This document shows, piece after piece, positions 11,187-36,424 of a stretch of 38,957 nt of DNA (position 1 is the first letter of the stretch; the number at the start of each line of letters is the position of its first letter). The position numbers were made by a program, and so were the translations under genes. The DNA comes from a virus. Below the pieces are notes generated by a model. The model did not search any database. It had not been told where the DNA came from and was given only the letters and a program-made list of their open reading frames with translations. The stretch covers positions 1 through 38,957 of IMG/VR virus record IMGVR_UViG_3300030329_006122. The stretch is one strand, 5' to 3'.

Positions 11187-14100
11187 ATGGCTGAAACAAC
11201 AAGTCTAGGAGCCACCTTAAATAGAGATAGACTATCTTATAAGCAATTTCTAGAGTTATATGGCATTAAGGATCCTGATAATCCACTTCATTATTATAAT
11301 TATAAATCAGCTTGGATGGGTGGAGGAAAGCCAGATGAAGAAGGTAAATGGCCATCTAAATATAAGACCGATTTGCATCCAAATAGATATATGGAAAAAG
11401 ATGGTGGCTTAATAGATACCAAAACAAATAAAAAGGCAACCATTGAAGATAAAGAGAAGTGGGATCGAAAGAGGGGGGAGTTTGAAAATAAAGCGAAAAT
11501 TAGAGGTTATAAATTACAAGATTTTACCCAATCTATTAGAGGTGAGCAGTTTACACCTAACCTTCCATATGAAGATACTCAGAATATTTATGTAGAGCCT
11601 AATGATAGTACTTATAAAGATTTTTCATTTTCATTTACAGGTAATACAGCAGGATTTGATTATGAAACAGATACATCGGCAGGAGAAAATACATTAACCC
11701 AGTTTAATGCATATGTTGCTAGACCTGCATCCAAAGAAATGGCACAGCTTGGACATGATCATGAAATTATAAAAGATAAAGACATCATTGAGTCTTATGC
11801 AAACTTTTACAATCAAAACAAATTAGAAATGAGCCTTGAAGAAAAGAAGGCATTATGGAAAAAGATAGAGGCCTTAGAATCCCAAGGTGTTGTAGCTTTT
11901 GATCCTCAAATGAATTTTACATTACCAAGCACAGAGGAATATAGACAGTATATAATAGAAAGAGAAAATGAGGAACTAAGTTTAAAATATCAAAAAGACT
12001 TTTTTGATGTTATAAAGGATTATACAACTGATCCAAGAAAATTATTACCTTTTGTGCATGATGTTGTAGATGGTTACCAAATATATGGACTTTGGGATTT
12101 AACAAAAAAAGTAGAACGAATTAATGAGTCATTAGAAAAAGGTGAAGATCCAGAAGAAGAATTGACAGAGGAAGAAAAAGAAGTTTTGATGGAGTTGATT
12201 TATGGAGATTCCACGACAGGAGGAAAAATAGCAGATACAGTGTTCAATATGATTCCATTTATGGGAGAGATGGCAGCAACCTTGGGTATTGGACAATTGT
12301 TTTATAAAGGATCAGTACAAATTGTTAAGAAAATTTCAAAGGACTTAACAAAAAATTTAGCAACAAAAGAGGGTAAAGATAAACTAGCTAAAGCAGTTAA
12401 TCAAGCATTTTCTAAAAAACTTATTAAACAACAATCTATTAAAACTGTTGGCGAGAAAGTAATCCCAAGGGCTATAGCCATAGAGGGTTTAACTCGAACA
12501 AAAGCAGTTGTTGCTCCTAAAATTTCAAAAAAGATTGCAGGTGCTAAGGATGATGTTTATGATAGAATGATCCCTACAATGGGTCGTATTAAGAATGAAT
12601 ATGGTGAAGAATATTATGGTGCAATGGAGGCAGGGTTGAGCCAGGATGATGCTAAAGAATCTGCATTATGGGATAATAGAATTGAAGTAATATCAGAATA
12701 TTCAGGAGGTTTATTAAGGTCAGCATTTAAAGGTATTTTAAGTCCATTTAAAAAATTAGCGAAAAAATATGGCCCAAATGGTGAGAGTGTTTTAGCTAAT
12801 AATGCACTATTCAAAGCATTCACAAAAAAATCTAAAGGAAAAATCCCAAAAAATAAACAGGCAGAATTTTATAAAAAAGTATTAGAAAGAGGTGGTTGGA
12901 ATGGTTATTGGGAGGAAATTGGCGAAGAAAGATTTGGTGGTATACTTAGGGCAGTTGCTGATGAGATGGGGATTAAAGGATTAGATACTACTATATGGCC
13001 AGACAAAGAGCAGTGGTTAGTGGAATTGGTTTCTTTTGGTGTACTCCCTGCAGGTATGACAGCTCAAGAATTTTCCTATCAAAGAAGATTATATAACAAG
13101 GTTAAAGATAGTAATGCTTGGAAAGAGATAAATAGAGCATCTGAAGCAGGTGAGATAAAGGGTGATGCAGAAGAGTTGTTGAGATATTTTGTACTTAAAG
13201 ATCCTAAAAAGTTTGATGAGTCTAATATTTTAGATATAAAGGATTCTATTTTAGAATTATCAAGGGAATATTTTGAAAACCAAGGACTTGATTTTGATGA
13301 TCTTTTGAAAAAAGAAGGCAAGAGGATTGATCTAGATAAGGTGTTTGCAGAGGGTAAGACAGAGTATGTTTCTATTGATGACAAAGTTAAAGTTTTAATT
13401 TCATTATTTCAATCTGAAAAGGGTGGTGTTACACCAGAGGCTGTAGTAGAGGAATTTTATGGTTCTTATTTTAAAAATAACTTATGGGATCCAAAGACTA
13501 AAACATTTAGAAACACATCTTCTGGAAAGATATTTAAAGAATATTATGAGGCATCTGGTGATACTAGATCACCTCAAGAGTTTTTCGAGCAATTGGGTGT
13601 TGAGCATTTTGTTAATAATAAGCTATATGGAGAAACAAGTATTGATAAAATATTGAGAATAGCTGCGAGATCATTATCCAATATATATAATAAGATAAAA
13701 GGCACAAAACCAAAGGTAGATCCTAAAATATTAAAGATGTGGGATGAGGCTGGTATGGGTAAGAAATGGTCACCTATCCATGCTACAGCACCTCCAGAAG
13801 ATAAAAAGGAAGATGTTGAAGAACCTCAAGAAGAGCCCCCTGTGGAGGTATTACAAGTAGAACCTGAAAAGGATGAATCTTATAGAATAGAAGAACCAAA
13901 AAAAGGAAGAACCAAAGGTGAATTTAAATATGCCAAAGATCAAAAACATCCACCTGGTAAACCTGAATTAGAGCAGGATGGATATGTTTGGAATTATTCT
14001 CCCTACTTCAAAGCATGGCAGAAAAGTAACGATCCAAATGCCCCTCAACCTAAAAAAACCAAAAAGGATGATGAATCATATAGGTTAGTAGAGAAGGCTG

Positions 14101-17100
14101 AGGGAGATGGTGAAGCACCTTCAAAAGAAGAGGTTGAGAATGAAATAAATGTTGATACTGTTGACAATCTATCGGATGCAGAGATTGAAGATATTAACAT
14201 TGTTACTCTTGAACCTCCTGCACCTCCTAAAGCTAAAAAGAAAGAAAAGCAGAAAGATGTTGAGCTACCAAGTGAAAATATAGTTGCTGATGTTAAACTT
14301 AAAAAGCCCATAAGCAAAAAAATATTTAATGATTGGAAACTTGGATTAGATAGTAACTATAAAGATTGGAAGCCCACCATAACCAAAGTAACTCCATTGC
14401 ATTATAAGGTTAACTATTCTGTTCCAATTACTGCTGATGGCTATGCACTGCCTAGTAAAACAGTTAATGTTAATAATTTTAAGAGATATGATATTAATGA
14501 AAAAGTCACCTATGATAAACTTCCAGAACCTAATAAGGATGAAGTAAAAAGTAGGATCAGAACTAGATCATTACAAAAAACTAAAGGAGCTAAACCTAAA
14601 AATAAAAAGCAAGTATTTAAAAATAAGAAAGGTAAGCAGATAACTGTAGGAAATAAAACTCCAGAGGATTGGTTGTCTGATGTAAAGGCCAATCTCACAC
14701 AAAGTAAAATCAAAAAAGCTAGAGAGTGGTATGGTGAGATTTATGGAATATTTAAAAATGCATTTGGTGAGCAGGATGGTGTTAAATATATGGTAACATG
14801 GCTCTTATCACAAAAACAAAAAAGTCCATCACAAGGACTAAGAAATGCATTGCAGGTAGCAGAGGAAATAAAATCTAATAGTAAAATTAAATTTAGATCT
14901 GGGCCAAAGAAAGGTCAGCCTAAGATTGCAGGTTTAAGTGACAGGATAATGAGAGATGTTTTTGAAGGAAAAGAGGTTCCATCTGGAATGGGTGCTAAAT
15001 TATTAGACTTCGTTGATTCTGCATTAGAAACCATAACAAGAAGGTATATGGGTAACAGTATGCAGGGTGGTCACCCAGCAGTTGTTGATAGGCATACATA
15101 TAGAGATAGAGGTTATTTAACCCCAGTATTATCTAATAAATTACTCTCTGAATTTGATGTAAAGACAAAGGCAGATGTACCAGGTGAGAATCCATCTGAG
15201 GCACAATATGAAGAGGCATCTCATTTCTTTAATGAGGTTGCTAATTATTTAAATGAACAGGGATATAATGGTGGTGGTTGGACACCTGCTCAAGTACAAG
15301 CAGTGGGGTGGACAAGCATTACAAATGCATTAGGTGAAGAAGGCGAAACAGCTCAAGATGCAATAGTTTATAATACTTCAGATGTTTTATTTGAATCCAT
15401 ATTTTTTGGCGAAGGATCACCATATGCAGAAAAGTATAAGCAGATAGAAGATTTTGGATATACACAATTACATCACATATCTAATAAGGTATCTCAATTT
15501 CTTTCAGATGCCATTCTTGATATTACAGGAGCAAAAGGGTTTTTAATACAAGGCTCTGGTGGTTATTTAGATTACCCTCAAGCACCAAGCACATCTTTAA
15601 GAATGATATCTACTCCAGAAACGATGCAAGATGCCATGGATGTAGTGGGGTATGTTGCTCAACAAACAGAGGTAATGACATTCAAACCCATTCAAAATGG
15701 AGATGGTTTAGGTGTACAAATATATGGTAAGGGTTTAGATAATAGCTCTATTGTTGATGATATATATAGAATGCTTAGAGAATATAATCCAGACATGGTT
15801 ACAGGATATACAGCAGGTGAGGTTGAGTTGGAGGATGGAGGATCTGTACCATCAATGGTTGTGGTACTTAATACTGGTAAACCTAAAAACATCACAACAG
15901 TAGATGCAAAAAATAAGTTTTTCGATAAATTTATCACTACTAATCAACAACTTCTAAAAGATTTATTAGAAAATCACATAAAAATAAAAGGCATTGATAT
16001 TAAGTTAGATTATTCGTATATTAGGCTTAACTCTATTGCCTCAAAGAACAATTGGAAGGAAAATAATAATGGCGAAAGTTACATTCAAAGGCTTAGTGAA
16101 AGATTCGGATCCGATATACAAACGAGGTTGGACAATGTTATTCGGAAGGAATTTGAGCAAAGGCTTGAGCAAGGGATCCAAGAAGCACAAAGAAATGAAA
16201 TAGATTTAGACACATCTTATAGAATTGTAGATTCATCCGAAGTAAAAGGATTTTATTCTAATTCTATATCTTCAGTAAATCAAAATAAACATAAATATCC
16301 TAATGGCATAAAATCAAGATCTTTGAGAAATGTTCTGCTACAAATGGGAGCAAATAAAGAAGAACTTGATTGGATGGACATTGATGGGTTGGTTAGTAAA
16401 TATAAGCCAGAGGAGAAGGTGCATATAGAAGATCTTCTTTTATGGATGAAACAGAATAGGATTGTGATTAAGGAGAGGATTTTAGGGCCAGGGGCACAAA
16501 TGAGAGTTGGGCCTATAGATGATGTTCTTCTCGAAGAAGGTGTTCATGGTGAGGCGAGATGGGGTGATCATATTTATAAACCACATGGAAGACATACTTA
16601 TCGAACCACAAAAGAATATAGAGAACTATTATTTATTTTAGAAGGTGATGGAGAATTTACACCGAATAGTATTCATTACGATACACCTAATCTGCTTGGA
16701 CATGTAAGGTTCGGTACTAGGTTTACTAAAGATGGTAAGAAGGTTTTGTTTATTGATGAAATGCAATCTGACTGGCACCAACAAGGAAGCTCCAAGGGTT
16801 ATGGTAAAAAAGCTGAATCTGCCAATGCAGGAGAAATCGAAACATTGGAAAATACAAGGAGTCGATTAAAAAATAACATTGTAAGAATGTTAACAGAGGC
16901 AGTAGAAAAGCATGATATTGATGGTCAATGGGGTAAGGATGCTAGAGCTGTATTTGCTGGAGATATCCCTACCAATGAACTTATACATATGGTAGGTCTT
17001 TTTGAAGAAAGGGCACAATCCTCTGAAACTAATTTGACTTCTCTTTGGGTACAAGTAATTGGCTCTAGAATTAATGATGGAAACATTCTTCCTAGGCCTA

Positions 17101-20100
17101 GACTCCACCCCTCTACTCTACCTGCTCGTGGAGCACCAGGACAAGGTGATTGGGTGGAAGGTGATGGGTGGAGTCAAGAGTTAGAAGACCATGTATTGGA
17201 TTTAGGAAACACCATTAGAGAGATTGCAGAGTTTAGAACCAAACAAGCAACCATAATACCAGAAGCTCCTTATAAAAAAACAGCCTGGATTAAATTTTTT
17301 ATGAAAAGGCTTATAAGGTGGGCAGTAGATAATAATCATGATTATATTTCATGGACTCCTAGTGCAGTACAGTATCAGCGATGGCAAAATCGATTTGATC
17401 ATAAGGCATGGAAGGTCAGATGGGTGAAACAAGCAACAGGCCCAAATGTAACTCCTAGGGTAACTGTGACAACATTTATTCGAGATGATGGGCAACGAAA
17501 TCCTGAACCATATGGTGGACTTGTTATTCCATTATATGGTCAAACTGTAATAGGGAGCAGGAAGGTGTCATTAAATTCTTATCTAGGTAAAGAGATGGCT
17601 GATGAAATAAGGAATTCGTGGGATAAAACACCAATTTCTGATGAATTTGTTTCTCCATTGGAATCTGAAGGTGAGTTAGATTTTAATATTGGTGGTCGCC
17701 ATTTCCAGTTTATATATGATCAAGCCATTCCAAGTATAAAAAAATATATTAAAAAGTGGAATTCAAATATCACTAAAATCCCAATGATTACTGCAGTAAC
17801 AGGGGGTAAACAATTAGCAGAGTATGATATAGGTGAGAATATATCTATTGAAACAGCTCTTGAGGAAGATTTATTATGGTCAGAAGATTTTGATGCAATA
17901 CCTATTACAGATGAAATGGTAAATTCAGTATTAGAGGGTCAGCCATCATTCAGAGTTACTGAGGCAGAGAAAGATAAATTAGAGGTGCCAGAGGAAACCT
18001 CAAGAGCATACCTTCAAAGGAAACTGCAAGACTCAATGAATAGGTTAAATCTCATCCAGGATGTTATTGGTGATATTTCAGAAGAAGATGATGTATATTT
18101 AAAGGCAGAGCTATTTATAGGTTCAGCTGCAGAAAAAATAGATAGATTCAGAGATTCCATTGTAGGTGATGATACTGCTTTTGTTAATAGGATGGATAAA
18201 GATAATATCTCTGTTGAGGATTTTGGTGATTTATTATATGCCCTTCATGCTAAAGAAAGAAATAGTAAAATAATAGAGAACAATCCAGACTTTGAGGGTG
18301 ATGGCTCTGGAATGTCGAATGCAGATGCAAATAAAATTATTAAAAAATATAAAAAGAAACATCCTATATGGAAATATGAAAAAGAATTTAGAGAATCTAT
18401 AATACAAGGCAGGTTAGATGTGTTGTATGAGGGTGGCCTTATAAATGAGGATCAGTACAATCTATTTTCTAGTGGTCAATTATATTCAAATTATGTTCCA
18501 TTAAAAGGCAAAAAAGGTAAAGTTTCAAGACCAATGGTTGGTAAGGGTTGGAGTGTTGGTGGTAAGGATATTAGAAGGGCTTGGGGCAGAGGCAGTAGAG
18601 CAGATAATCCCTTTATACAATCACTTATTGACATGGAAGAGGCTCTTATAAGAGTTGAAAAAAATAAAGTAACCACCTCATTGTATAATCTTGCACAAAA
18701 TAACCCCTGGGATGGTTGGGAGGCAAAAGGTAGAAAATATAAACCTCAATATAATCAAGATGGTGAGATAGAATATTTTAGACCAGACTTGCTACAGGAC
18801 AATCAAGTATCAGCAATAATAGATGGAAAGCATAAAATCATTACCATAAATGATGAGGCTTTGTTAAGGGGTATTAAGAAGATGGGTACTGGTAGATCAT
18901 TTAAGTTCCTTCAAACATTTGCTAATTATTTTAGAGCAGTAAACACCATGTATAACCCTAAATTTATTTTAACTAATTTCTTTAGAGATCTTCAAACAGC
19001 AGGTATACATTTATTTGGAGAACAAGAGGCAGAGCTTTCTGCACAAGTCATAAAAGATATTGTTCCTGCAATGCAAGGGGTATTAAAAGAAGTTAGGGAT
19101 GGTAAGGGTAATGCTTGGTCTGATGCTTATGCAGATTTCAAGGCTACTGGTGGAAGGGTTGGTTGGTTTGATACTAAGTCTACAGAAGAAAAATTAGAAG
19201 AATTAAATAGTCGATTAGCAGCAGTTAAGGAAAATGCTTTTTGGAAGAGAGGCAGATTGTTTTTAAAATTAATTAGAGATATGAATGAGGCTGTTGAGAT
19301 GGGTGTAAGATTGTCTGCATATGTTAATATGGTAAACTCTGGTATTTCTAAAAGAAGATCAGCACAATTTGCAAAAAATTTAACAGTTAACTTTAATAAA
19401 AAAGGTGAGTGGGGATCTATCATTAATTCAATATGGATATTTAGTAATGCTGGGATACAAGGCAGTACAAGGATCCTTTCATCCATAGCTACAAGTAGAA
19501 GGACTAGAGCTATTGTTGGTGGGGTAGCAGGTATGGCTTTCCTTCAAAGCTATATAAATAGAATAATGTGCCCAGATGTATGGGAAAGAACTTCATCTTT
19601 TGAAAAGGATAATAATTGGGTAATAGTTACACCTAATTGTCAAAAATATACCATAAGGGTTCCATATGGCTATAATATGTTTAAGGTAATGGGGCAAACA
19701 GCAGAAGAGCTTATGGTTGGAGATCTTCCATTAGGAGAGGCTTTAGCAAGGAATTTAGAAGGGATTAATAATGCTTTTAATCCTATTCAATCAGGAACAT
19801 TATCTCACCTTCCTTGGCCAACATTTTCTAGACCATTAATCCAATATAAGGATAATGTTAATTTTATGGGAACAAGTATTTATAGAGATGATTATCCATT
19901 CCAGGCATCTGTAGTAAACCAAAAGAAAGCATGGCCATCAATGGAAGGTGGTTGGGAACAAAAAGTAACCAATTGGTTTTTCAAATTAACAGGTGGAGAT
20001 TTGGAAAAGGAAACAAAAAAACCATGGACTATTGATACTAACCCAGAATTATTGGAACATTTAGTAGATTCATATGGTGGAGGAACTGTAAGATTTTTAA

Positions 20101-20549
20101 GTAATACTTTATCTACCACCACAGAATTAGCCATCAATGGAAGGTTCCCAGAAACAAGAAAAATACCTATTGTCAATGCTTTTAAAAAAGGTGACAATGG
20201 ATTCCAGGCTAAAAAAACTTATTCTATAATATTAAAAGATTCTAGAAAATATGTTTATGATGATGTTCAGCAGGAAAGATTTTACAGGAATCTTGAATGG
20301 GCATATGAGTTTGAAGTTATAAATGCAAAACAATTCAATGATGCCATGTTGGCATTTGAAAAAAATCAGCAGAAAGCAAGAGGGATATATGACAAAGTAA
20401 AGGCATATAAGAAACATATGAAAAAAGGAATGAAGATGCCTAGTCGTTTTTATAGCCCCTCCAAACCACCAAAAAAGGATGAAGATGAAAAAGACAATAA
20501 AAAAAATAATACAGGAAACTCTAGAAAAGGTAGAAGAATTAAATTCTAG
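11187..20549 (+). CDS. Giant polyvalent ejection protein with LPD38-type C-terminal region
   Basis: 3120 residues, about 24% of the genome. In order: a charged N-terminus; a hydrophobic segment near 346-375; a long helical region; a Pro/Lys/Glu-rich linker (about 860-1080); a conserved-looking domain from 'TPEDWLSDVKANL' (about 1158) to 'HPAVVDRHTYRDRGYL' (1296-1311); and a domain with 'HVRFGTRF', 'VLFIDEMQSDW' (1839-1863) and 'IPEAPYKK' to 'ISWTPSAVQYQRW' (2024-2067). The latter two are patterns I know from phage and plasmid polyvalent proteins. Around 2580-2606, 'NYFRAVNTMYNPKFILTNFFRDLQ' matches the large polyvalent protein-associated domain LPD38. The C-terminus is basic. Four S-(Y/F)-R motifs sit near domain borders. 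The probable role is injection into the host with the DNA, with enzymatic or anti-defence domains. No individual activity is proven. Confidence 0.8.
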   Translation: MAETTSLGATLNRDRLSYKQFLELYGIKDPDNPLHYYNYKSAWMGGGKPDEEGKWPSKYKTDLHPNRYMEKDGGLIDTKTNKKATIEDKEKWDRKRGEFENKAKIRGYKLQDFTQSIRGEQFTPNLPYEDTQNIYVEPNDSTYKDFSFSFTGNTAGFDYETDTSAGENTLTQFNAYVARPASKEMAQLGHDHEIIKDKDIIESYANFYNQNKLEMSLEEKKALWKKIEALESQGVVAFDPQMNFTLPSTEEYRQYIIERENEELSLKYQKDFFDVIKDYTTDPRKLLPFVHDVVDGYQIYGLWDLTKKVERINESLEKGEDPEEELTEEEKEVLMELIYGDSTTGGKIADTVFNMIPFMGEMAATLGIGQLFYKGSVQIVKKISKDLTKNLATKEGKDKLAKAVNQAFSKKLIKQQSIKTVGEKVIPRAIAIEGLTRTKAVVAPKISKKIAGAKDDVYDRMIPTMGRIKNEYGEEYYGAMEAGLSQDDAKESALWDNRIEVISEYSGGLLRSAFKGILSPFKKLAKKYGPNGESVLANNALFKAFTKKSKGKIPKNKQAEFYKKVLERGGWNGYWEEIGEERFGGILRAVADEMGIKGLDTTIWPDKEQWLVELVSFGVLPAGMTAQEFSYQRRLYNKVKDSNAWKEINRASEAGEIKGDAEELLRYFVLKDPKKFDESNILDIKDSILELSREYFENQGLDFDDLLKKEGKRIDLDKVFAEGKTEYVSIDDKVKVLISLFQSEKGGVTPEAVVEEFYGSYFKNNLWDPKTKTFRNTSSGKIFKEYYEASGDTRSPQEFFEQLGVEHFVNNKLYGETSIDKILRIAARSLSNIYNKIKGTKPKVDPKILKMWDEAGMGKKWSPIHATAPPEDKKEDVEEPQEEPPVEVLQVEPEKDESYRIEEPKKGRTKGEFKYAKDQKHPPGKPELEQDGYVWNYSPYFKAWQKSNDPNAPQPKKTKKDDESYRLVEKAEGDGEAPSKEEVENEINVDTVDNLSDAEIEDINIVTLEPPAPPKAKKKEKQKDVELPSENIVADVKLKKPISKKIFNDWKLGLDSNYKDWKPTITKVTPLHYKVNYSVPITADGYALPSKTVNVNNFKRYDINEKVTYDKLPEPNKDEVKSRIRTRSLQKTKGAKPKNKKQVFKNKKGKQITVGNKTPEDWLSDVKANLTQSKIKKAREWYGEIYGIFKNAFGEQDGVKYMVTWLLSQKQKSPSQGLRNALQVAEEIKSNSKIKFRSGPKKGQPKIAGLSDRIMRDVFEGKEVPSGMGAKLLDFVDSALETITRRYMGNSMQGGHPAVVDRHTYRDRGYLTPVLSNKLLSEFDVKTKADVPGENPSEAQYEEASHFFNEVANYLNEQGYNGGGWTPAQVQAVGWTSITNALGEEGETAQDAIVYNTSDVLFESIFFGEGSPYAEKYKQIEDFGYTQLHHISNKVSQFLSDAILDITGAKGFLIQGSGGYLDYPQAPSTSLRMISTPETMQDAMDVVGYVAQQTEVMTFKPIQNGDGLGVQIYGKGLDNSSIVDDIYRMLREYNPDMVTGYTAGEVELEDGGSVPSMVVVLNTGKPKNITTVDAKNKFFDKFITTNQQLLKDLLENHIKIKGIDIKLDYSYIRLNSIASKNNWKENNNGESYIQRLSERFGSDIQTRLDNVIRKEFEQRLEQGIQEAQRNEIDLDTSYRIVDSSEVKGFYSNSISSVNQNKHKYPNGIKSRSLRNVLLQMGANKEELDWMDIDGLVSKYKPEEKVHIEDLLLWMKQNRIVIKERILGPGAQMRVGPIDDVLLEEGVHGEARWGDHIYKPHGRHTYRTTKEYRELLFILEGDGEFTPNSIHYDTPNLLGHVRFGTRFTKDGKKVLFIDEMQSDWHQQGSSKGYGKKAESANAGEIETLENTRSRLKNNIVRMLTEAVEKHDIDGQWGKDARAVFAGDIPTNELIHMVGLFEERAQSSETNLTSLWVQVIGSRINDGNILPRPRLHPSTLPARGAPGQGDWVEGDGWSQELEDHVLDLGNTIREIAEFRTKQATIIPEAPYKKTAWIKFFMKRLIRWAVDNNHDYISWTPSAVQYQRWQNRFDHKAWKVRWVKQATGPNVTPRVTVTTFIRDDGQRNPEPYGGLVIPLYGQTVIGSRKVSLNSYLGKEMADEIRNSWDKTPISDEFVSPLESEGELDFNIGGRHFQFIYDQAIPSIKKYIKKWNSNITKIPMITAVTGGKQLAEYDIGENISIETALEEDLLWSEDFDAIPITDEMVNSVLEGQPSFRVTEAEKDKLEVPEETSRAYLQRKLQDSMNRLNLIQDVIGDISEEDDVYLKAELFIGSAAEKIDRFRDSIVGDDTAFVNRMDKDNISVEDFGDLLYALHAKERNSKIIENNPDFEGDGSGMSNADANKIIKKYKKKHPIWKYEKEFRESIIQGRLDVLYEGGLINEDQYNLFSSGQLYSNYVPLKGKKGKVSRPMVGKGWSVGGKDIRRAWGRGSRADNPFIQSLIDMEEALIRVEKNKVTTSLYNLAQNNPWDGWEAKGRKYKPQYNQDGEIEYFRPDLLQDNQVSAIIDGKHKIITINDEALLRGIKKMGTGRSFKFLQTFANYFRAVNTMYNPKFILTNFFRDLQTAGIHLFGEQEAELSAQVIKDIVPAMQGVLKEVRDGKGNAWSDAYADFKATGGRVGWFDTKSTEEKLEELNSRLAAVKENAFWKRGRLFLKLIRDMNEAVEMGVRLSAYVNMVNSGISKRRSAQFAKNLTVNFNKKGEWGSIINSIWIFSNAGIQGSTRILSSIATSRRTRAIVGGVAGMAFLQSYINRIMCPDVWERTSSFEKDNNWVIVTPNCQKYTIRVPYGYNMFKVMGQTAEELMVGDLPLGEALARNLEGINNAFNPIQSGTLSHLPWPTFSRPLIQYKDNVNFMGTSIYRDDYPFQASVVNQKKAWPSMEGGWEQKVTNWFFKLTGGDLEKETKKPWTIDTNPELLEHLVDSYGGGTVRFLSNTLSTTTELAINGRFPETRKIPIVNAFKKGDNGFQAKKTYSIILKDSRKYVYDDVQQERFYRNLEWAYEFEVINAKQFNDAMLAFEKNQQKARGIYDKVKAYKKHMKKGMKMPSRFYSPSKPPKKDEDEKDNKKNNTGNSRKGRRIKF

Positions 20550-21814: not shown

Positions 21815-21834
21815 TTCTCTTAGTAACGATGATG

Positions 21835-21872
21835 AGAGGGGGGATTATTCTAGACATTGTAATCCCTCCTCT
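21835..21872 (+). terminator. Hairpin terminator at end of late operon
   Basis: Left arm 21835-21847 and right arm 21860-21872 pair over 13 bp with one G-U, around a 12-nt loop. The stem is rich in G/C next to its base. Only a short 'ATTT' follows, so the U-tract is weak, but the position between the last lysis gene and the first recombination gene suits a terminator. Confidence 0.65.
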
Positions 21873-21880
21873 ATTTAAAA

Positions 21881-21909
21881 TTGTTGCTGCAAATCAATGT
21901 TTTTATTTA
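21881..21909 (+). promoter_or_regulatory. Weak candidate promoter for the recombination operon
   Basis: TTGTTG (21881-21886) and TATTTA (21904-21909) are 17 bp apart, immediately after the terminator and 45 bp before the start at 21955. Both boxes deviate from the sigma-70 consensus. A promoter is expected here because the operon restarts after a hairpin. Confidence 0.3.
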
Positions 21910-21954
21910 TATTTCCCAGGAAGATTTTTCAGAAAATAACAAAAGGAGAGTACA

Positions 21955-22632
21955 ATGAGTAATAAAAACCTAGGCCTCTGGGATCAAGTTGAATCTACAG
22001 ATGCAAAATTCACCCACAAACTACAATATGGTGCCAAGCTAACTGCAATAGATGCTCAGTATCAAAGAAAAAGAGCCACTGAAATGTTTGGCCCTATGGG
22101 AATTGGTTGGGGTACTACAGAATCTACCTATGTCCACAATCAAGAATTCTCCCACCTATATTTCACTGCTAAATTATGGTATGTATGGGAAGGAACTAAA
22201 GGTCAGATAGAGATAGCCTCTGACATACCATCAAAACCCGATTGCTATAAAAGTGTTAGAACTGATGCTATAACTAAGGGATTAAGTGAGCTTGGTTTTA
22301 ATGCAGATGTTTTTATGGGTACATTTGATGGAAATAAATATATGAAAGAAGACTCGGTGCTCTCCGAGAATGAGGCGATTGGAAGGGGTTCTAGTGGTGA
22401 GGTCACTAATTCCCCTTCTGCCTCTGAAGAGCCTACTATGGAAACATTATTGGATTTCGGTAAACATTCCGATAAACTTTTAAAAGATGTTCCATTAGAT
22501 TATTTAAGTTGGTTGGTGGGTCAAAAGGATCCAAGTCCAAAGGTTGCTAAATGGCTTGATATTGCAAATAAAGAACTGCATAGGAGAAAAACAATAGAAA
22601 ATCAAAAGGGTGGTGATGAATATGAATTCTAA
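21955..22632 (+). CDS. Rad52/Sak-like single-strand annealing protein with ExoX-like C-terminal domain
   Basis: 225 residues. Residues 25-130 have the pattern of phage Rad52-type annealing proteins: 'LTAIDAQYQRKRATEMFGPMGIGWG', then 'KSVRTDAITKGLSELGFNADVFMG', then 'FDGNKYM'. After a Ser/Glu linker, residues 165-212 ('LDFGKHSDKLLKDVPLDYLSWLV' onward) match the small domain found at the C-terminus of ExoX-like exonucleases and fused to various phage proteins. The likely role is annealing of complementary strands during recombination-dependent replication. The small domain may recruit DNA or partners. A strong AAGGAGAG ribosome site precedes the ATG. The 3' end overlaps the exonuclease gene, its natural partner. 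Confidence 0.75.
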   Translation: MSNKNLGLWDQVESTDAKFTHKLQYGAKLTAIDAQYQRKRATEMFGPMGIGWGTTESTYVHNQEFSHLYFTAKLWYVWEGTKGQIEIASDIPSKPDCYKSVRTDAITKGLSELGFNADVFMGTFDGNKYMKEDSVLSENEAIGRGSSGEVTNSPSASEEPTMETLLDFGKHSDKLLKDVPLDYLSWLVGQKDPSPKVAKWLDIANKELHRRKTIENQKGGDEYEF

Positions 22633-23377
22633 ACCACAATTGATTGAAAAAACAAGGAATGGAAGGTGGTACTCAGTTGCAGGATATGATGTTCCATCAG
22701 TAACAACAGTACTGCAAGGATTCAAATGCCCTCATTGGCTAATGGAATTTATGGTAAAACAAGCAGGTGGCGACCCTAGGTTGTTATACGATAAAAAAGG
22801 AGAGGCCTTGAGGGTAGGATCCTTGGTTCACGAAAGTATAGATAAAATACTTAATGGTGAATCTATCACATTGGATAATGATCACGAGGCTCAAAAAGCA
22901 TTAATATCATTTATGTGTTTTTGGAAAAAATATAATCCAAAACCTTTTGCACAAGAACAATTACTTGCATCAGAAGAAATGAGGGATGATTCTCTTAGGT
23001 ATGGTTTTGCAGGTACAGTAGATCTTGTGGCTGAAATAGATGGTGATTTATGGCTTTGTGATTATAAAACCTCTCAACAACTAGACCCTGAAATGGGTTT
23101 GCAATTATCTGCATATAAAATGCTTTGGGATTCAACTCACGATAGGAAGATAGATAGGTTGGGTATAGTTTGGTGCAAGAAGACCTTTAGGGGTCAGCTA
23201 CCTGCTAAATCAACAAAATATCTGCATGAGTTTGAATACTCACCGAAGGATTGGTTTTGTGCATTTAAGTTGTTTCAAAGGTATTGTAAAGATACTAATG
23301 GTGTTTATGGCCCTAAATTAAAAATTGATTATATTAATGAATTTAGTTTAGATGTAATCAAGGATTTAAGTATATGA
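22616..23377 (+). CDS. RecB/Cas4-like PD-(D/E)XK exonuclease
   Basis: 253 residues from the ATG at 22616. GTGs at 22610 and 22613 and an ATG at 22622 are also possible; GGG at 22608-22610 is the likely ribosome site. RecB-type nuclease motifs appear in order: 'GSLVHE' with His72, 'GTVD' with Asp136, 'CDYKTS' with Asp149 and Lys151, and 'QLSAY' with Gln163. Together with the upstream annealing protein this forms a two-component recombinase like lambda Exo/Beta, in which the nuclease resects ends and the partner anneals. The two genes overlap by 17 bp. Confidence 0.8.
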   Translation: MNMNSKPQLIEKTRNGRWYSVAGYDVPSVTTVLQGFKCPHWLMEFMVKQAGGDPRLLYDKKGEALRVGSLVHESIDKILNGESITLDNDHEAQKALISFMCFWKKYNPKPFAQEQLLASEEMRDDSLRYGFAGTVDLVAEIDGDLWLCDYKTSQQLDPEMGLQLSAYKMLWDSTHDRKIDRLGIVWCKKTFRGQLPAKSTKYLHEFEYSPKDWFCAFKLFQRYCKDTNGVYGPKLKIDYINEFSLDVIKDLSI

Positions 23378-23381
23378 CATT

Positions 23382-23450
23382 GGGGGTTAGAGCTATGGTT
23401 ATATCTGACCAAGGGTGATAATCTTTGCAGAGATTAATGTTCTGACCCCT
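23382..23450 (+). ncRNA. Possible structured RNA, domain A (three-way junction)
   Basis: In the 203-bp gap after the exonuclease gene, 23383-23391 pairs with 23441-23449 over 9 bp (one G-U). This extends inward by a G-U and a C-G pair and outward by a G-U. Inside are two hairpins: 23396-23401 with 23406-23411 (loop tatc), and 23419-23424 with 23431-23436 (loop ttgcag). The joining strand 23412-23418 is purine-rich. This is the layout of a compact aptamer or ribozyme-like RNA. It does not match the hammerhead, purine, preQ1 or glutamine riboswitch cores as I remember them. The fold was drawn by eye. Confidence 0.4.
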
Positions 23451-23460
23451 ATAATATTTA

Positions 23461-23542
23461 TGAGCAGGTGCATTTCTTTGAATGACCTACAATCAATAGC
23501 ATATGATAAAAAACCAAGAAAGTCCACACAATCACCTGCTCA
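23461..23542 (+). ncRNA. Possible structured RNA, domain B (long hairpin)
   Basis: TGAGCAGGTG (23461-23470) and CACCTGCTCA (23533-23542) are perfect 10-bp inverted repeats. Inside them 23473-23478 can pair with 23516-23521, and a short ATCA/TGAT hairpin lies at the tip. A consensus-like TATAAT (23450-23455) sits between domains A and B. The element ends 38 bp before the gene at 23581. It could be RNA structure or a DNA element such as an origin or an operator. Confidence 0.4.
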
Positions 23543-23580
23543 ACTTTTAATAACATCAAACAAAAAAAAGGAAATAAATA

Positions 23581-23883
23581 ATGAGAAGTGAAGTACATAC
23601 TAATGTAATGCTACCACATTTAAAGATTCAAATTGTACCAACTGACATTGTTGGTAAAGACATTACATATAAAATAATAATTCAAGCTGATGACTTTAGC
23701 GAGATAGTTCCAAACATGACAGTAGTAGCAAAAAAAGTAACAGTTAATAGTAAAGATTTTCACATAAGGGGAACAGATGAAAAACCACAGATTGAAAAAG
23801 AAGAGGTCAAACAACCTAAACCAAAGGCTAAACCGACAACACAAGATCAGGCATCGAAAAGCATTAAAAAGTCTGTTAAATGA
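23581..23883 (+). CDS. Small protein of unknown function before the methyltransferase
   Basis: 100 residues. The N-terminal two thirds look beta-rich ('HLKIQIVPTDIVGKDITYKIIIQADDF', 'NMTVVAKKVTV'). The C-terminal third is a Lys/Pro/Gln-rich, probably disordered tail. The ribosome site is AAAAGGA. The stop overlaps the methyltransferase start (ATGA), so the two are translationally coupled. This could be a DNA- or protein-binding accessory of the methyltransferase, but no motif supports a specific role. The structured region 23382-23542 lies just upstream and may control it. Confidence 0.7.
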   Translation: MRSEVHTNVMLPHLKIQIVPTDIVGKDITYKIIIQADDFSEIVPNMTVVAKKVTVNSKDFHIRGTDEKPQIEKEEVKQPKPKAKPTTQDQASKSIKKSVK

Positions 23884-25175
23884 TACTCCTTGACCTTTTT
23901 AGTGGTATAGGTGGTTTTCATCTTGGTTTGACCCAGGCAGGGATAAAGTTTGATAAAGTATATTATTCTGAAATAGATAAACATGCAGTTAAACAATATG
24001 AAAGGAGATTTCCAGATGCAGAATGGCTCGGAGATATTACCTCTATTCGATCTGACAGATTACCAAAACACATTGACCTCATTTGTGGAGGATTTCCATG
24101 TCAAAGTTTCTCAATTGCAGGAAAACGAGGATCCTTTAATGACACTAGAGGTACTCTCTTTTTTGAAATCGCAAGGATTCTCAGACATTACATTGAAATT
24201 GGAAACCCCATCAAAAACTTTATACTCGAAAATGTTAAAGGCTTATATAGTGCAGGAGATCACTCAGCCTTTGCTACAATCCATGGAATTCTTACCGACC
24301 TTGATTATACCATTGAGTGCGAATTACTTAATACTCGCAACTTCTCCTGCCCACAGAATAGGGAAAGAATATACATTGTCGGACATTTTAGAGGAGAATG
24401 TAGACCAAAAGTATTTCCTCTCGGACAAGGTTATGAAAAGGTTACTGAGTTACAAGGACAATATACAAACACCATTAAAGCAAGATACGAGGCCACAGGG
24501 GATGGATCGTACATTATTGAGGGTGAACAGCATGCACAAGAAGGAACAGGACTCAAACAAATCGGAACAATAGGTGAAGATTCAGAGGCTACTAGGGTTT
24601 ATGATACAGGTGGTAATGCTAGAACAATTAAAGATGGTGGTGGTATGGGTGCTAAAACAGGATTATATGAAGTTATGGCTTATTCTAAATCACATAGAAC
24701 TGATAATGTAGAACATAGAATTAAAACTGATGAATTTAATACTTTATCTACAGGAAAAGGTTGTACAAATCAATCCTCTGCAAATTATATTAAAATAATA
24801 GGGAACTTAAAAGGTGATGGTGGTCACGAATGTCATAATGTACATGATCCTAATGGAATTGCACCTACAGTAAGAAATAACCATGGAAAAACCACTATGA
24901 TAGAAAATCCTAGTTTAGATGAAAATGGCAACACAACTGCATTAGATGCTAATTATTATAAAGGCCATGGAACTAGAGGTAATAAAATGAGAGCATTGGC
25001 GACTACTTCATCTAGGATTCGTAGATTAACCCCAACTGAATGTGAAAGATTACAAGGATTCCCTGATGGATGGACAGAAGGACAATCAGATACACAACGA
25101 TATAAACAACTAGGCAATGCAGTATCAGTGCCTGTAGTTAAAGCAATAGGAGAGCAACTATATGAAAATAAATAA
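23880..25175 (+). CDS. dcm: DNA cytosine-C5 methyltransferase
   Basis: 431 residues with all main m5C-methyltransferase motifs: I 'DLFSGIGGFHLGL' (5-17), IV 'GGFPCQSFSIAGKR' with catalytic Cys74, VI 'ENVKG' (117-121), VIII 'QNRERIYIVG' (159-168), IX 'RRLTPTECERLQGFPDGW' (381-398) and X 'QLGNAVSVPVV' (410-420). The region between VIII and IX, about 210 residues, holds the target-recognition domain. It contains several short degenerate repeats, as in multispecific phage methyltransferases. The likely role is protecting phage DNA from host restriction. It overlaps both neighbours. No cognate restriction enzyme is adjacent, although two small PD-(D/E)XK nucleases lie downstream. Confidence 0.92.
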   Translation: MILLDLFSGIGGFHLGLTQAGIKFDKVYYSEIDKHAVKQYERRFPDAEWLGDITSIRSDRLPKHIDLICGGFPCQSFSIAGKRGSFNDTRGTLFFEIARILRHYIEIGNPIKNFILENVKGLYSAGDHSAFATIHGILTDLDYTIECELLNTRNFSCPQNRERIYIVGHFRGECRPKVFPLGQGYEKVTELQGQYTNTIKARYEATGDGSYIIEGEQHAQEGTGLKQIGTIGEDSEATRVYDTGGNARTIKDGGGMGAKTGLYEVMAYSKSHRTDNVEHRIKTDEFNTLSTGKGCTNQSSANYIKIIGNLKGDGGHECHNVHDPNGIAPTVRNNHGKTTMIENPSLDENGNTTALDANYYKGHGTRGNKMRALATTSSRIRRLTPTECERLQGFPDGWTEGQSDTQRYKQLGNAVSVPVVKAIGEQLYENK

Positions 25176-25908
25176 CCCTTGGGTATTAATTCCAGAAAAT
25201 GTTTTAAAAGATCCTAATCTTACTTTTAGAGAGAAGATAATGTATTCTAAAATTCTAGCACTAGATAATGGTGAAGAACATTGTTATGCAAATAATCATT
25301 ATTTTTCAGAATTATTAGGTGTTGGCAAAGTTAGCATATCAAGAATCATAAATGGATTAGTTAAGAAAAATTATATTAAAATCAACAATCCACAATCTAA
25401 GCATAGAAGGATAAAGATATGTACAAACCTACTTTATACAAATGGTCAAAGTAACAATATACATATGTATAAACAGAATAATAATAATAAAAATAATAAT
25501 AAAACACATGTAGGACTTCGTATTTTACATTTTAAAAGCTCAATGATAGAGGCCTTTAAAGATGCCGAGATGCCTGTAGAAGAGCAGGAAAAGTTTTTAG
25601 AATACTGGTGCGAATTAAATTCAAGTGGAAATAAGTTTCGCAGAGAAAAAGAAGAGTTCTTTGATGAAAAGAAAAGAGTTAAAACATGGATGGCTAGAGT
25701 GCAGAAGTGGAATAACAAAAAAGCAAATAAAATACATTTAACTCAATTTAAGAGGGATAGTGCAGGTTTTCCAATAGGGTGGTGTGGTAAATGTGGTAAG
25801 AGTGATTTTTATACAGAGTTTGAAATATTCCAAGATAGCAGGTGCTGCGGTGATAAATTATTTCCTCATAATCATATAGAAAGGAGTGGTAATGGAACTA
25901 TCAACTGA
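25162..25908 (+). CDS. Replication initiator with winged helix and zinc finger
   Basis: 248 residues. Residues 5-75 form a winged-helix domain of the type in phage O-like and DnaD-like replication proteins: 'PWVLIPENVLKDPNLTFREK', then 'FSELLGVGKVSISRIINGLVKKNYI'. An Asn/Lys run (106-114), encoded by an AAT-rich tract, is a flexible linker. Residues 130-184 ('FLEYWCELNSSGNKFRREKE' to 'KTWMARVQKW') resemble the helicase-loading region of such initiators. Cys208, Cys211, Cys228 and Cys229 near the C-terminus could bind zinc. With no phage helicase or polymerase visible, it probably loads host machinery. The start overlaps the methyltransferase gene, with AGGAGAG as ribosome site inside it. Confidence 0.7.
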   Translation: MKINNPWVLIPENVLKDPNLTFREKIMYSKILALDNGEEHCYANNHYFSELLGVGKVSISRIINGLVKKNYIKINNPQSKHRRIKICTNLLYTNGQSNNIHMYKQNNNNKNNNKTHVGLRILHFKSSMIEAFKDAEMPVEEQEKFLEYWCELNSSGNKFRREKEEFFDEKKRVKTWMARVQKWNNKKANKIHLTQFKRDSAGFPIGWCGKCGKSDFYTEFEIFQDSRCCGDKLFPHNHIERSGNGTIN

Positions 25909-27331: not shown

Positions 27332-27509
27332 GCTATTAAATAATATAGATTCTACAATAAGAGATGCAGAAATAAAGGCATTTTGGGAAGGTTTGTCCTA
27401 TACTGAAAAATCATATAAGTGGAAGATTGAGATAATCTCCAGCCACTATCATACATCAGAGGAAACCATTAAAAATGCCATCTATAAAGACAAGCATAGA
27501 GATAGGTAG
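27318..27509 (+). CDS. Possible small HTH-like gene lacking a standard start codon
   Basis: The 143-bp gap after ninG holds an open frame (27267-27509) in the +1 frame relative to ninG. No ATG or GTG lies in it, and the only TTG is well inside. A CTG at 27318 would give 63 residues containing 'FWEGLSYTEKSYKWKIEIISSHYHTSEETIKNAIYK', which reads like a helix-turn-helix. It ends 35 bp inside the next gene, like other overlaps here. Non-standard initiation (CTG, or ATA at 27294 behind GGAG) or a frameshift from ninG are possible. It may also be a decayed gene. Confidence 0.4.
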   Translation: MNTSRLLNNIDSTIRDAEIKAFWEGLSYTEKSYKWKIEIISSHYHTSEETIKNAIYKDKHRDR

Positions 27510-27889: not shown

Positions 27890-27914
27890 AACCCCCAATT
27901 AAGGGGGTTCTTTT
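27890..27914. terminator. Bidirectional rho-independent terminator
   Basis: AACCCCC (27890-27896) and GGGGGTT (27903-27909) form a perfect 7-bp stem with loop aattaa. A T-run follows on the plus strand (tt-c-tttt) and an A-run precedes it, so it can work on both strands. It separates the plus-strand early operon from the convergent minus-strand gene. Confidence 0.85.
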
Positions 27915-36396: not shown

Positions 36397-36424
36397 ATCT
36401 CCCCCTGGGAAACTAGGGGGAGAT
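36397..36424 (+). terminator. Stem-loop after capsid genes, weak or partial terminator
   Basis: ATCTCCCCCT (36397-36406) pairs perfectly with AGGGGGAGAT (36415-36424) around an 8-nt loop. The plus strand lacks a T-run after it, so full termination is unlikely. Partial attenuation or protection of the capsid mRNA 3' end fits its place between capsid and tail genes. Confidence 0.55.

Follow-up and report, generated by a model that had tools for sequence, protein, structure and literature searches.

A strand-specific predicted RNA hairpin and a probable short gene between the exonuclease and methyltransferase genes of an uncultivated tailed phage

The DNA analyzed here (the window) is a virus record of 38,957 bp from an uncultivated tailed phage, and carries genes for terminase, portal and major head proteins. 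A scan for tRNA and tmRNA genes returned none. One gene of 3120 codons (11187-20549) takes up a quarter of the genome, and the strongest 80-nt fold of the window (17101-17180, -38.1 kcal/mol) lies within it. The initial annotation had drawn attention to a gap of 203 bp (23378-23580), which is indeed present between the stop codon of an exonuclease gene at 23377 and the next ATG at 23581. It is the largest gap of the region but not the only sizeable one, as had been claimed, because two others of 140 bp (21815-21954) and 143 bp (27332-27474) are found nearby, and the first of these also contains a strong hairpin. The genes and features of the locus are:

22610..23377, + strand: PD-(D/E)XK exonuclease gene, upstream of the gap (phrog_298, E 2e-29; PF12705)
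23381..23451, + strand: predicted RNA hairpin, with a 13-bp outer stem (23381-23393/23439-23451), an irregular inner stem and a loop at 23417-23420
23460..23591, + strand: probable short gene, of 43 aa with a start at ATG 23460 and of 37 aa with one at TTG 23478
23461-23470/23533-23542, no strand assigned: perfect 10-bp inverted repeat, TGAGCAGGTG/CACCTGCTCA, with a 62-nt loop, inside the short frame
23581..23883, + strand: orphan gene of 100 aa, downstream of the gap, for which no family or homologue was found
23880..25175, + strand: C5 cytosine DNA methyltransferase gene (PF00145, E 6e-75; dcm, TIGR00675)
25162..25908, + strand: DnaD-like/replication initiation gene (phrog_186, E 4e-13)

Folding predictions for the first half of the gap indicate a genuine, strand-specific RNA hairpin. 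The + strand of 23381-23452 folds at -31.7 kcal/mol, compared to -16.0 +/- 3.1 kcal/mol for dinucleotide shuffles (z -5.1, 0/500), whereas the minus strand is unremarkable (z -1.5); the first half thus far exceeds chance on the + strand only. DNA folding of the two strands gives values near chance (z -1.8 and -0.3). The best RNA fold has 29 pairs (10 GC, 11 AU and 8 GU), and the difference between strands arises because 8 of the 29 pairs are G-U, which points to RNA as the structured molecule. An outer stem of 9 to 12 bp had been described and is in fact 13 bp, its pairs having probabilities of 0.8-1.0 both alone and in a context of about 420 nt. The three-way junction enclosing two hairpins that had been drawn inside it is disfavored, since the junction (-27.0 kcal/mol) is 4.9 kcal/mol worse than a continuous irregular stem (-31.9 kcal/mol) and each enclosed hairpin has a probability of about 1%. 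Among the 80-nt windows of the genome, counting both strands, the hairpin ranks fifth, and two + strand windows that fold better, at 17101 and 22346, are both within genes, so fold energy alone is no proof of function.

The hairpin was found in one phage only among the records and loci searched. An Rfam covariance-model search of the whole window gave no matches at the gathering threshold, and relaxing the threshold gave sub-threshold noise only; a known family is therefore excluded at the gathering threshold. The layouts of purine riboswitches and hammerhead ribozymes were rejected because their core sequences are absent. A covariance model of the hairpin (R1) was run on 29 records from relatives, whole or partial, and on some 100 additional loci without finding a relative, the exact stem pattern was not found across viral contigs, and a comparison of the gap DNA with a phage collection returned chance fragments only. 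The pattern of the inverted repeat did occur in two viral contigs (L260 and L261), which share one identical element in reverse complement, and no homologue of any window protein searched was detected in them. As roughly one chance match is expected in such a scan, the element was not taken as homology.

Searches with the terminase and with an exonuclease profile recovered 19 loci with the same kind of exonuclease (L068-L085 and L089). The distance from the exonuclease stop to the next ORF start is between -19 and +9 nt in every one of them (counting a TTG start in L072 and L085), and a comparable hairpin at this junction is absent from all of them. Over the 500 nt that follow the exonuclease stop, local folds mostly range from -14 to -23 kcal/mol, and the stronger folds of L071, L083 and L084 fall inside predicted downstream ORFs. 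Those of L071 and L084 (-32.6 and -40.4 kcal/mol) lie about 121 nt past the exonuclease stop, around the start of the initiator gene. What follows the exonuclease differs among the relatives: the initiator gene directly in L068, L070, L074, L077 and L079, small ORFs in L069, L071-L073, L081 and L082, a methyltransferase in L078 and another gene in L080. This differing content indicates that the junction is a variable insertion slot. A recognizable initiator gene lies downstream in most of the 19 loci, whereas L075, L083 and L089 showed none at the threshold applied; a search with the initiator profile found more members with the same gene order, and in many relatives the DnaD-like gene comes directly or soon after the exonuclease. 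Across the phage family, the exonuclease/initiator junction (22610-25908 in the window, counting both genes) holds small ORFs, a methyltransferase or nothing. In the window the slot is about 1.8 kb long and is occupied by the hairpin, the short frame, the orphan 100-aa gene and the methyltransferase gene, the last of which (23880..25175) belongs to the inserted segment. A search for close relatives of the methyltransferase gave only three distant ones.

The second half of the gap has a different character. Much of what had been treated as a non-coding spacer is probably coding, as the open frame 23460-23591, which extends beyond the next start codon (23581), has coding-like codon usage. Its codon score of 0.139 per codon is above that of every wrong-frame and antisense segment sampled from known genes, and among their in-frame segments it falls at the 23rd percentile. 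Of 20,000 shuffles of the gap, 4.4% contained an ATG frame of at least this length, and 8.4% of these frames reached its score, or about 0.4% jointly. The coding signal starts near 23474. No good ribosome-binding site is present at ATG 23460, while TTG 23478 comes after an AGGTG. This AGGTG forms the 5' arm of the inverted repeat, and the predicted fold pairs all of it, so a hidden ribosome-binding site is possible. Neither the 43-aa frame nor the 100-aa downstream protein, both used as handles to relatives, gave any homologue. From its codon usage, 23460-23591 is probably a short gene. The perfect 10-bp inverted repeat is present as described but is not exceptional: counting such repeats with loops up to about 100 nt, the window has 5, against 7.6 +/- 3.0 expected from shuffles, and 41 of 2000 shuffles of the gap (2%) hold one. 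It is probably incidental, and it may possibly hide the AGGTG ribosome-binding site of the short frame if the predicted pairing forms. The second half would then be mostly short coding sequence, its repeat incidental or at most masking the ribosome-binding site, and the two-domain element originally proposed is better described as one hairpin and a probable short gene.

Strong hairpins are common in the gaps of this phage family. In the window, a G-rich hairpin of 14 bp (21833-21875) lies in the gap of 140 bp that precedes the recombination genes, where the + strand of 21820-21885 has z -4.4; strong hairpins occur at the same junction in L085 and L183, and are absent in most other relatives. 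Another, of 12 bp with a GAAA loop (36397-36424), is found between the two genes that follow the one for the major head protein, and has counterparts at the same junction, before a ribosome-binding site, in L157, L160, L167, L169, L171 and L175. Hairpins of like form are seen in L010 and L163, where the neighboring genes were only partly checked. In an alignment of six distinct sequences of this hairpin, 96.7% of cells pair, a percentage inflated by the 24-mers having been picked as hairpins and hand-aligned on the loop. The arms differ wholesale, and 8 of 10 pairs are changed on both sides, where shuffles give 3.6 and slid controls no more than 6, while the GNAA loop is kept in five of the six sequences. 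This hairpin is a better candidate for an RNA family than the one at 23381-23451. Hairpins that lie within operons and lack a U-run are thus maintained in this family, and a role in processing or stability suits them better than one in termination.

The closest parallel is perhaps the R1.1 site of T7, an RNase III site in a phage pre-mRNA with a long imperfect stem (PMC8708148, PMC4858673). A literature search on phage processing hairpins yielded general RNase III papers. Like R1.1, the 23381-23451 hairpin is predicted to form a long and imperfect stem, placed between the genes of a single polycistronic message and without the U-run of a terminator, and its 29 predicted pairs over 71 nt, the outer 13 uninterrupted, amount to the approximately two helical turns of an RNase III site. 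Unlike the RNase III signals of T7 early mRNA, it is a single predicted copy at its junction and is not conserved in relatives. It resembles the capsid-gene hairpin of its own family in being strong, on the transcript strand and in an operon gap with no U-run, but the latter has a conserved position, a GNAA loop and compensatory changes, whereas 23381-23451 is unique, longer and irregular. With intrinsic terminators it shares a GC-rich stem after a gene, and differs from them in lacking a U-tract and in the length, irregularity and G-U pairs of its stem.

Our preferred reading, tentative and at slightly under even chances, is that the hairpin is a lineage-specific, RNase III-site-like element for mRNA processing or stability within the operon, at the edge of an inserted cassette. 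Gene order suggests that it is transcribed. The exonuclease message would end in a long irregular double-stranded stem, and past this stem would start a second message, that of the inserted short ORF, 100-aa gene and methyltransferase; host RNase III might cut the stem, or the stem might block exonucleases, or both, giving the two messages separate stability and expression. The hairpin probably came with, or arose at, the gene cassette that entered the slot separating exonuclease and initiator. Cleavage and a stabilizing role are presumed from the predicted fold and its resemblance to known sites. Several observations favor this reading: the + strand signal (z -5.1) and the 8 G-U pairs suit an RNA of the coding strand, the hairpin sits at the variable exonuclease/initiator insertion slot, and the family has strong hairpins in other gaps, of which one covaries and lies within an operon right before a ribosome-binding site. 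Counted against it are the absence of any hairpin homologue in the searches, the two in-gene windows that fold better and, as regards the short frame, the want of a good ribosome-binding site at its ATG and of any homologue.

The main mechanistic rival is termination, in which the hairpin would act as a terminator or attenuator after the exonuclease genes and meter polymerase into the methyltransferase cassette. The strong GC-rich outer stem, followed by the AU-rich stretch UAUAAUAUUUAUG, is compatible with this, and terminators are present in the gaps of relatives (L162). However, the tail of the stem, UAAUAUUUAUG, has no run of U, the terminator scan makes a call in the window at 27890-27909 but none at the hairpin, and a matching high-score downstream promoter was not called there; the first two points also speak for processing, and we consider termination unlikely. 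About as likely is that the hairpin has no present function and is a by-product left over from insertion of the gene cassette, as would be allowed by its restriction to a single phage, by its place in a slot of variable content and by the equally strong in-gene folds of the window. A strand-specific z of -5.1 together with 13 uninterrupted outer pairs is nevertheless much for unselected sequence.

Rather than a new riboswitch or replication origin, the hairpin is most likely a feature of a common type. The initial annotation had offered a structured phage RNA among its options, and while a processing role is the best reading of the first half, an aptamer or riboswitch is unsupported. A new ligand- or protein-binding regulatory RNA, acting as a riboswitch-like leader over the methyltransferase and initiator genes, would agree with a structured sequence in a leader-like position 5' of the methyltransferase gene that has no match in Rfam. 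Such an RNA is very improbable given that a conserved core is absent, no relative turned up in the loci searched, the three-way junction is disfavored by 4.9 kcal/mol, the gene cluster is no metabolic pathway, and other genes intervene between hairpin and methyltransferase. A hair less probable again is its more elaborate form, an undescribed cis-acting phage RNA sensing a protein or ligand that controls the methyltransferase and initiator cassette, with the repeat switching the ribosome-binding site of the leader ORF. A DNA structure serving the replication initiator, whether as an origin, the other option raised at the outset, or as a protein-binding site, is the least probable of all. The inverted repeat does lie 1.6 kb upstream of the DnaD-like initiator gene, but it is at chance level window-wide, DNA folds of the region are near chance and the hairpin leans on its 8 G-U pairs. 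In addition, the skew does not change at the locus, iterons were not found in the region, and conservation of the structure is not seen among relatives with the initiator.

Should the processing reading be correct, the locus would add one more phage case of a hairpin parting the segments of a message, in this instance at the edge of a methyltransferase cassette. The pattern of hairpins in the family, including the covarying one after the capsid genes, would be of modest use in the annotation of genomes of this sort and could provide a starting point for defining an RNA family.
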